DNA of 64,000 nucleotides from Armatimonadota bacterium. GTDB lineage: Bacteria; Armatimonadota; Fimbriimonadia; Fimbriimonadales; Fimbriimonadaceae. Below, in pieces: positions 3,572-32,977 of the stretch (positions within the stretch are counted from its first letter, which is position 1; every line of letters starts with the position of its first letter). A program made the translations under genes and the position numbers. Below the pieces are notes generated by a model. It had not been told where the DNA came from, searched no databases, and saw nothing but the letters and a program-made list of their open reading frames with translations. The DNA is taken from contig JAFDWX010000007.1 in NCBI GenBank assembly GCA_018268255.1, forward strand, positions 151,178 through 215,177, in the 5' to 3' direction.

Positions 3572-4546
3572 ATGAATGAAACTGAGTTTGTCGAAAAGCG
3601 GCGCCAGCGCTGGGACCGATTGAGTTATCTCGCGCGCAAGGCGGACGTCACGGTCCAAGCGCTCAATCCGGCTGAGCTCGTCGAGTTCGTCAGCTTGTAC
3701 CGATCCACATGTGCTGATCTGGCTCGCGTCAGAGGCGAATCGAGCAACTACGGCCTGATGGTAGAGCTCAACGCCTTGGTCGGCCTGGCTTACGGCGTGC
3801 TCTATCGCCGAACCCGAAAGTCTGCCAAGGAAACCGTCCTGGAAATCCTGTTGACGGTGGCTCAGACTTTCCGGAAGTGCAAGAACTTCGTCCTTGCAAG
3901 CCTGCTGATCACGCTTCTCAGTGGAGGAGTTTCTTTTTCTCTGCTCTCGACCAGGAAGGATGTTCGCGATCAGATTATCGACGCGCGAGAGGTGCCCCTT
4001 TTCAAACGGTGGCAGGAAGGCAAGCACGATGACCGGTCTGGCGAGGAGAATGGTCTGGCGTGGGCTTTTTACGCCAGTAACAACCCGCGGGTCTCGATGA
4101 TCCAGACGGGAGTCGGCTTAGCAACAGGCGGTTTGTTCTCCACGATGATGGCAGTCAATCTGGGTCGCCAGTTGGGAGCGCTCAGCCATGAGATGGCCGT
4201 CGTGGGGAAACTCGGGTGGTTCTTCTCCCAGATCATGCCTCACGGGGCCACCGAGTTGTTTGGGGCGATTATCTCTGGGGCTGCCGGGTTGGTGCTTGGC
4301 TGGGCGATTATCTCTCCTGGACGTCGGACACGTCTGCAGGCTCTCAAGGAGGAAGGCAGGGATGCGATGGTTCTTGCGGGTCTCTCCATCACGATGATGT
4401 TTATCGCCGCGCCGTTCGAAGCGTTCTTCAGCTTCAACCCGCAGTTTCCTTCTTGGCTCAAGGCGATCGTTGGCATCATTGTGCTCGCCTCTTGGCTCAT
4501 GTATTTCCTCACGTATGGCCAAAAAGAAGAGGGCCGGCGGGGGTAA
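3572..4546 (+). CDS. SpoIIM-like (DUF95) integral membrane protein
   Basis: A 324-residue membrane protein. The first 100 residues are soluble and charged (RQRWDRLSYLARKADV, LYRSTCADLARVRGES), as in the stage II sporulation protein M family (COG1300), and are followed by a core of about five hydrophobic helices. In non-sporulating bacteria the family is usually found with an RDD protein, a MoxR ATPase and DUF58 proteins; those are absent here and the downstream neighbour is an MlaE-type permease. Function outside sporulation is unknown. A stem (GGGCCGGC/GCCGGCCC, 4532-4556) spans the stop codon, without a T-run. Confidence 0.85.
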   Translation: MNETEFVEKRRQRWDRLSYLARKADVTVQALNPAELVEFVSLYRSTCADLARVRGESSNYGLMVELNALVGLAYGVLYRRTRKSAKETVLEILLTVAQTFRKCKNFVLASLLITLLSGGVSFSLLSTRKDVRDQIIDAREVPLFKRWQEGKHDDRSGEENGLAWAFYASNNPRVSMIQTGVGLATGGLFSTMMAVNLGRQLGALSHEMAVVGKLGWFFSQIMPHGATELFGAIISGAAGLVLGWAIISPGRRTRLQALKEEGRDAMVLAGLSITMMFIAAPFEAFFSFNPQFPSWLKAIVGIIVLASWLMYFLTYGQKEEGRRG

Positions 4547-4801
4547 GCCGGCCCGTGTGGAGGGAGTTCGAACGGCGTGGGGTGGGCCGTTCTCGTCGGG
4601 GTTCCGTGGTTCAGTGTGTCTCGGGTTCTTTGTTCGGCCCCACGGGGTTGGGGCACCGACAGAGTTGGATTTCCCGGTCTTGCGACAGGATTCCCTACGC
4701 AATGTGCGGGTGTTGACGCGACAAAACGCGAATACAGAACGTTTACGCGCGTCAACTTGCTTGCTAGTACAGGCAATCCAATTAGGGTACGGTTGCTTCC
4801 G

Positions 4802-32180: not shown

Positions 32181-32209
32181 TTGCAGGAACACCACAAGCG
32201 TGGTATGAA
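32181..32209 (+). promoter_or_regulatory. Promoter with dyad in the spacer, upstream of Cys-rich gene
   Basis: TTGCAG (32181-32186) and TATGAA (32204-32209) are 17 bases apart and the spacer holds ACCAC-aagc-GTGGT (32191-32204). A dyad inside a promoter spacer is the layout used by some metal-responsive regulators. A second hexamer TAGATT (32211-32216) lies 4 bases before the ATG, so which -10 is used is unclear. Confidence 0.45.
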
Positions 32210-32220
32210 TTAGATTGTAG

Positions 32221-32631
32221 ATGCGGATGTCGCGATTCCACTCCATATGGGCTGTGGTACTTGTGCTCACCTTTTTCGTGAGCAGCGCGATCTCCCCGTG
32301 CCAGGCCGCAGCCTCCACAGTGGGGTGCAGCTGTTGTTGCAAGTGTGATTCTCAAAGTTCCCAGCTGGATGCCAAGCACACTTCTTGTGGAGTGGGCACG
32401 GAAAGCTCCTGCTGTTGCGAGGTCAAATCGAGTCCAAAGGCACCGCAGACCAGCGCTAAGGCGCTCCCTGCCGAGCTACCCTCGGTACCGGCACTTGCTC
32501 TCGCTCCCAAGATTGAGTTCCTGCCTACGTGGACCTACGAAAAGCAGGCGCTTCCGGATGACCCTTGGATGGGAGAACCACCCGGCTGGCGAATTCTTCC
32601 CAGGTGTACCCGCGCACCTCCGATTGCGTGA
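32221..32631 (+). CDS. Secreted Cys-rich protein
   Basis: A 136-residue exported protein: signal (MSRFHSIWAVVLVLTFFVSSA), then CSCCCKC, a spacer with SCG and SSCCCEV, and a Pro/Ala-rich rest ending in RILPRCTRAPPIA. The nine clustered cysteines look metal-binding. The Trp/Pro-rich tail ending in RAPP recalls small proteins beside metal-resistance genes, which is only a hint. The next gene encodes a metallothionein-like secreted peptide. No ribosome-binding site; the ATG at 32221 or at 32227 could be used. Confidence 0.65.
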   Translation: MRMSRFHSIWAVVLVLTFFVSSAISPCQAAASTVGCSCCCKCDSQSSQLDAKHTSCGVGTESSCCCEVKSSPKAPQTSAKALPAELPSVPALALAPKIEFLPTWTYEKQALPDDPWMGEPPGWRILPRCTRAPPIA

Positions 32632-32689
32632 CGGCTTCAGTCGTCCGCGGCCTTTTGCGCCGCCATGTCCTAGAAATTAGGGAAACGCA

Positions 32690-32908
32690 ATGAAAAACAT
32701 TCTTATCGTATCGCTCGCCACTTTGAGCCTTGGGCTCGCTGCCTTTGCCTCGTCCCCCAGCCTGCCATCATTCAAGACGGGTTGCTGCTGTGGCGAAGTA
32801 TGCAAGTGCAAAGACTGCAAGTGCGGAACCTGCGCCTGCTGCAAAGATGGATGCAAGTGCAAGGATTGCGGCTGCTACAATGGCGGCGGCACTTGCTGTG
32901 GCAAGTAA
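32690..32908 (+). CDS. Secreted metallothionein-like peptide
   Basis: A 72-residue protein with a clear signal peptide (MKNILIVSLATLSLGLAAFA), then about 50 residues with 16 cysteines in CCC, CKC, CKDCKC, CACC and CGC patterns, Lys/Gly/Asp between, and almost no hydrophobic residues. This is metallothionein-like but exported, and does not match a known bacterial SmtA pattern (no His or long spacer). Binding of Cu or Zn outside the cytoplasm is the likely property. AGGGAAA serves as ribosome-binding site; a strong terminator follows. Confidence 0.8.
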   Translation: MKNILIVSLATLSLGLAAFASSPSLPSFKTGCCCGEVCKCKDCKCGTCACCKDGCKCKDCGCYNGGGTCCGK

Positions 32909-32923
32909 CCTCGCTTGGTAAAG

Positions 32924-32959
32924 AAAGTGGGCCGGAGCTTTTCGCTCCGGCCCACTTTT
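32924..32959 (+). terminator. Strong bidirectional terminator
   Basis: AAAGTGGGCCGGAGC (32924-32938) and its perfect complement (32944-32958) around a TTTTC loop, 15 bp, with TTTT on the plus side and AAA on the other. Ends the Cys-rich transcript and, from the other strand, that of the M42 peptidase gene. Confidence 0.93.
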
Positions 32960-32977
32960 GGTGAAAGCCAGGCGACT

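Follow-up and report, generated by a model that had tools for sequence, protein, structure and literature searches.

The two-gene locus

Two small open reading frames (ORFs) lie in tandem, 58 nt apart, on the plus strand of the window, by which we mean the whole stretch of 64,000 nucleotides that was analysed. The features of the locus, in positions of the window, are the following.

32221..32631, plus strand: leader ORF of 136 aa with 11 Cys, ending in CTRAPPIA before the stop codon; proposed metal-sensing arrest peptide, putatively exported
32221..32310, plus strand: hydrophobic N-terminus of the leader, like a signal sequence (about residues 1-30, read by eye)
32326..32346, plus strand: Cys cluster 1 of the leader, CSCCCKC, residues 36-42
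32410..32418, plus strand: Cys cluster 2 of the leader, CCC, residues 64-66, which are 65-67 residues before the RAPP arginine
32578..32583, plus strand: conserved Pro-Pro of the leader, P120-P121, 11 residues before the RAPP arginine
32611..32622, plus strand: putative RAPP arrest motif, R131-P134 of 136 residues
32623..32629, plus strand: upstream pairing arm ATTGCGT, made up of the final leader codons and the first stop-codon base; it would lie under a ribosome stalled at RAPP
32669..32681, plus strand: small hairpin CCTA-gaaat-TAGG, which takes in the start of the Shine-Dalgarno sequence
32679..32683, plus strand: Shine-Dalgarno-like AGGGA of the metallothionein-like gene
32685..32691, plus strand: downstream pairing arm ACGCAAT, which reaches into the start codon of the metallothionein-like gene
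32690..32908, plus strand: metallothionein-like peptide of 72 aa with 16 Cys, putatively exported (from the ORF and its relatives)
32923..32959, plus strand: terminator-like hairpin of 16 bp that closes the two-gene unit (-34.7 kcal/mol for 32915-32970, z -6.0)

A preliminary description of this DNA had reported a secreted Cys-rich protein of 136 residues, followed by a secreted peptide of 72 residues with 16 Cys. Both ORFs are present as claimed; the motif SSCCCEV occupies residues 62-68 of the first, and the N-terminus of the second also resembles a signal sequence. Export of the two proteins was judged by eye from N-termini that are hydrophobic and typical of signal sequences. The leader is probably disordered, and neither protein had a match in Pfam or NCBIfam, the known metallothionein profiles included. 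Upstream, a gene that looks like mutL ends 45 nt before the leader ORF. On the other side an ORF of 353 aa on the minus strand, by its look an M42-type aminopeptidase, converges on the pair, and the terminator-like hairpin sits between them.

The same description had placed a promoter in front of the leader, with a dyad ACCAC-aagc-GTGGT in its spacer as in regulated metal promoters. The dyad is indeed found at 32191-32204, but an equal one occurs in 17.7% of the shuffles of this 45-nt interval. The assignment of -35 and -10 elements is weak, since a consensus scan gave no plus-strand promoter there. The regions in front of the other metallothionein leaders described below showed nothing like this dyad. 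We dropped it as a regulatory element because of its chance level in shuffles and its absence from those loci.

Recurrence of the pair and collection of leaders

When the peptide of 72 aa was compared with 291 Armatimonadota genomes, one clear relative was found, in another genus (G156). An exported-looking, Cys-rich ORF of 156 aa precedes this relative, in the same order as in the window. In both upstream proteins RAPP is followed by two last residues (CTRAPPIA in the window and APRAPPAF in G156), and these first two pairs were linked through their metallothioneins, not through RAPP. Three further leaders came from weak hits that bore the RAPP tail, and a profile built from the five leaders retrieved about 30 more, from many genera and several families of Armatimonadota. 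A scan of the genome contigs returned the G156 locus alone, and searches with single proteins at loose E-values yielded hits that were mostly spurious, with L002 as a real one among them. A second collection used the DNA pattern G-R-A-P-P-x-x-stop and no profile; its exported-looking, Cys-containing ORFs included 14 leaders that were new. In total we obtained 52 leaders. They are short, exported-looking and Cys-containing, and RAPP or RGPP stands near the C-terminus in 52 of 52, this tail being itself the collection criterion for most of them. In a plasmid collection, the peptide and the leader L127 were both without a match.

The preliminary description had proposed a search for the pair in other genomes, and this search was fruitful. 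A leader followed by an exported-looking Cys-rich peptide was found at nine Armatimonadota loci, which is beyond chance:

the window
G002 (L228), a second species of the window's genus
G156 (L130)
G021 (L002)
G123 (L101)
G121 (L099)
G024 (L123), with a peptide of about 36 aa
G058 (L126)
G067 (L129)

Short ORFs that match neither Pfam nor NCBIfam could arise by chance or from an assembly artefact. However, the two-gene unit recurs with its conserved features in other genera and families, and these conserved pairs refute such an origin, to which we assign a negligible probability.

The 72-aa peptide has the look of a metallothionein: it is small, carries CxC and CxxC motifs, and 16 of its 72 residues are Cys. 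The Cys-rich C-terminal half is common to all its relatives, and the mature form would be about 50 residues long, with Cys, Lys and Gly abundant in it. Homologues with signal-like N-termini hold the same place after a leader, which supports the reading of this ORF as a putatively exported, metallothionein-like peptide. Homology to solved metallothioneins was considered and set aside, as none was found by sequence among the solved structures. The peptide shares with SmtA a very high Cys content and the CxC and CxxC spacing, but SmtA is cytoplasmic and the peptide does not match its Pfam family. Csp1 is an exported, Cys-rich copper store folded as a helical bundle, and it shows that such stores exist. 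Both Csp1 and the window peptide are very rich in Cys, but the mature form of the latter is a chain of about 50 residues.

A fixed distance between cysteines and RAPP

In the window leader the last Cys of the second cluster, C66, is 65 residues from R131. This distance is a property of the whole collection: in 50 of the 52 leaders the RAPP arginine is preceded by a Cys at a distance of 62-69 residues, and in the remaining two by one at 59-61. The eight positions 62-69 hold 111 Cys over the 52 leaders, compared to 21 in the 58 residues closest to the arginine, and the linkers have a mean ungapped identity of 10.8%. The spacing is kept in 45 of 47 non-redundant leaders. A profile search may favour linkers of equal length, and the collection was therefore repeated by the DNA pattern without a profile; all of the 14 new leaders found in this way had a Cys at 62-69.

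The corresponding distance from Cys to motif is 45 residues in CruR/DUF2946 (PMC9426467) and in CutF (PMC9973294), and about 47 in SilD of pMOL30. For CutF, about 30 residues were allotted to the ribosomal tunnel and 17 to the membrane (PMC9973294). By the same arithmetic, 65 residues would place the Cys clear of the translocon. The DUF2946 profile, PF11162, did not match the window leader; the best of 37 leaders reached an E-value of 0.24, and no match over the cut-off was found in 85 genomes of the family. On these grounds, and with a spacing of 65 instead of 45, we rejected membership of DUF2946.

Predicted pairing of the RAPP codons with the next ribosome-binding site

Peptides with RAPP stall the ribosome with the first proline in the P site (PMC10987492). 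As one arm we took the 20 nt from the first-proline codon onward, which lie roughly inside or at the edge of the ribosome footprint. The other arm consisted of the next start codon and the 22 nt that precede it, and the null was obtained by reassigning arms among loci. The downstream start codons were hand-picked before the test, by ORF length, Shine-Dalgarno sequence and homology, and some may be wrong. At the 34 loci found by profile, the mean duplex energy was -12.3 kcal/mol, compared to -8.4 kcal/mol (sd 0.43) after reassignment, and none of 2000 reassignments was as good. The 14 pattern-found loci (13 new leaders and the His-rich L231) gave -15.4 versus -9.3 kcal/mol (0 of 5000), and the eight metallothionein loci -12.2 versus -8.4 kcal/mol (1 of 5000). 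For all 48 loci the values were -13.2 and -8.5 kcal/mol (0 of 2000). Control segments, taken just 5' of RAPP or inside the next gene, reached only about -6.4 kcal/mol. Examples of the pairing are CTGTTTCCT with AGGAAACAG at L002, CCTCCTGTGT with ACACAGGAGG at L127, and GTGTTCCTTTG with CAAAGGAACAC at L123.

In the window, ATTGCGT can pair with ACGCAAT across the start codon of the metallothionein-like gene, a match that taken alone is ordinary (p 0.31), and the interval between leader and peptide was not more structured than its shuffles. When a ribosome is placed on RAPP in the model, the start region becomes more accessible, going from 0.10-0.14 to 0.45, and the accessibility of the Shine-Dalgarno sequence is 0.3-0.4 in both states. 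Most leaders are separated from the next gene by a short interval of about 50-110 nt.

Apart from the pairing, the hexamer TCGTCG was observed in 13 of the 48 intervals, often 30-50 nt upstream of the next start, where shuffles predicted 1.0. Its counterpart in the window is TCGTC at 32641-32645.

Genes downstream of the leaders

Downstream of the other leaders there are YHS/TRASH proteins, an HMA protein, a plastocyanin-type cupredoxin, YtkA-like proteins, a CusB-type fusion protein with a heavy-metal-binding domain, and outer-membrane efflux proteins (TolC). Small proteins followed by TolC-like genes had no Pfam hit, and the label Spy-like that we gave them is an impression. The preliminary description had named homologues beside unrelated functions only as an outcome that would speak against it; the neighbours of the leader family are instead metal genes. 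Their variety ties the leader to metal handling in general and not to metallothionein alone.

The nature of the neighbours bears on what the leader may monitor. Monitors of the Sec pathway have RAPP-type arrest and a similar layout (PMC10987492), and the Cys pairs of our leaders could form disulfides. The leader might thus follow export or the oxidation of envelope thiols, as a SecM-like or redox sensor, and the metallothionein would respond to that stress and not to metal. However, no sec, yidC or Dsb gene is among the immediate downstream genes listed, and metal genes occupy these places, which makes this explanation quite improbable.

The preliminary description had viewed the two proteins as an extracytoplasmic metal-buffering pair, and the putatively exported, metallothionein-like peptide fits this view. 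Both proteins look exported and are Cys-rich, and the pair recurs, as would be expected if they buffered metal jointly or handed it over outside the cytoplasm, with RAPP and the pairing being incidental. What joint buffering leaves unexplained is the fixed distance from Cys to RAPP across unrelated linkers, the pairing of the codons with the ribosome-binding site, and the presence of the same leaders before efflux, YHS and cupredoxin genes. We think that it has little probability. Given its C-terminal RAPP, its fixed Cys distance, its codon pairing and its relatives before different metal genes, we read the Cys-rich partner as a regulatory leader with an arrest function and not as one half of a buffer.

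Proposed mechanism

We suggest that the window leader is a RAPP arrest leader that responds to metal with the same sign as CutF, so that metal prolongs the stall and the metallothionein is turned on. We give this reading a probability of roughly three in four. The distance ruler and the pairing of codons with the ribosome-binding site support a control in which the stall means expression, and this is also the simplest reading, as in SecM and CutF. In most proteins a RAPP-like motif by itself does not lead to a stall (PMC10987492), and this counts against an arrest function.

In our model, the leader of 136 aa would act in cis, as a Cys-rich, exported nascent chain that stalls the ribosome through its C-terminal RAPP. 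When no stall occurs, the last codons of the leader would pair with the next start region and hold down the synthesis of the exported metallothionein. With the ribosome stalled at RAPP, these codons would be covered and the start region freed, and the metallothionein would be made. During the stall, the Cys cluster, being some 65 residues away from the arrest site, is expected to emerge beyond the membrane, where it can bind metal, most likely copper. Binding would prolong the stall, and the buffer peptide would be made when extracytoplasmic metal is high. That metal prolongs the stall, as for CutF, is suggested by the outputs, which are metallothioneins and efflux proteins.

The main rival has the opposite sign. 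The stall would be the default, metal would release it, and the downstream gene would be turned down; termination of transcription within the interval could be the means. CruR, which has the same RAPP motif, behaves in this way (PMC9426467). However, metallothioneins, efflux proteins and metal-binding proteins are expected to be needed when metal is high. Moreover, the intervals here are mostly about 50-110 nt long and the ribosome-binding site is paired directly, unlike in CruR with its interval of 162 nt, and the Cys spacing is 65 and not 45. We regard the opposite sign as unlikely and retain the reading in which metal prolongs the stall.

Relation to known systems

CutF, of the cutFOG genes of Rhodobacter capsulatus, is also an exported, cis-acting leader with a Cys motif and a Pro-rich C-terminus, and export-dependent copper control has been demonstrated for it; metal prolongs a stall-like state, and the stem-loop that covers the following ribosome-binding site is opened (PMC9973294). 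The features that mark a CutF-like leader are found here, namely a signal-like N-terminus, a Cys motif, a Pro motif in the last 15 residues and a metal gene downstream on the same strand. CutF differs in that 45 residues separate its Cys motif from the C-terminal motif, compared to about 65 here, in having one CxxxC motif in place of Cys clusters, and in its output, a multicopper oxidase. CruR/DUF2946 (bp2923 of Bordetella pertussis), for which RAPP-dependent control by the nascent chain has been demonstrated, is of the exported type as well, with a Cys motif, a RAPP at a fixed distance near the C-terminus and a place 5' of metal genes (PMC9426467). CruR, however, works through Rho termination in a long interval, whereas our intervals are short and pair with the ribosome-binding site, and it lowers its target with copper, opposite to the response proposed here.

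ApdA, ApdP, ApcA and SecM are likewise small, exported upstream ORFs with a RAPP-like motif near the C-terminus; they stall with the first proline in the P site and the next gene is opened (PMC10951233, PMC10987492). The window leader, which by eye looks exported, shares the size, position and RAPP of this group; by computation, its end can also pair with the next ribosome-binding site, and a stalled ribosome would disrupt this pairing. The known peptides differ in that they serve secA, secDF or yidC, whereas our leaders, which carry Cys clusters in the chain, have metal genes as targets. The CopL family (NF033807) also comprises metal-binding regulatory leaders 5' of copper genes; one of 37 leaders matched it weakly (1.1e-5), and the other 36, including the window leader, did not.

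The preliminary description did not recognise a described system here, but the kind is known. Arrest peptides with RAPP have been described (PMC10951233, PMC10987492), CruR and CutF are leaders that sense copper, and RAPP/RGPP leaders have been reported before copper-related genes in many lineages (PMC12992588). Metallothionein was not found mentioned in the papers on CruR and CutF or in that report (PMC9426467, PMC9973294, PMC12992588), nor did we find, in the open-licence literature, an arrest peptide described for Armatimonadota. What appears to be new, judged from the sequences, is a leader family outside DUF2946 with a longer ruler from Cys to arrest motif, about 65 residues instead of 45. 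We see an even chance that these leaders are a class of metal-sensing arrest peptides in their own right, spread over the whole phylum. Such a class would have its own ruler, with Cys about 65 residues from the arrest site and metal tested past the translocon; the arrest would be coupled directly to initiation through the pairing of arrest codons with the ribosome-binding site, and the outputs would include exported metallothioneins.

To our knowledge, experiments have demonstrated copper sensing by nascent chains in just a small number of leaders, all from Proteobacteria. Armatimonadota, a poorly studied phylum, seems to be a wide user of nascent-chain metal sensing. If our reading is true, the synthesis of an exported metallothionein follows the metal outside the membrane, and the sharp ruler and the codon pairing make the mechanism open to simple reporter tests.

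Observations at single loci

In G121 (L099, 1463-1990) the stop codon of the leader has been lost (TGA to TGG), which adds 22 residues beyond RAPPVS; RAPP and the metallothionein gene are kept. The RAPP leader L231 (G016, minus strand, ending at 927 of that strand) is rich in His (HHHH and more) and not in Cys. It precedes a TolC-like gene, to whose ribosome-binding site it pairs strongly, and it is perhaps a sensor for a different metal. At L100 (G040, 4206-4685, minus strand) the protein after the leader resembles MerB, an alkylmercury lyase, in a weak match (E 1.7e-5) below the curated cut-off. Finally, the YHS protein after the leader of G162 (L098, 1947-3164) has a barrel-like C-terminal part that by eye resembles the ORF after the metallothionein of G156 (L130), a likeness that suggests a shared metal operon.
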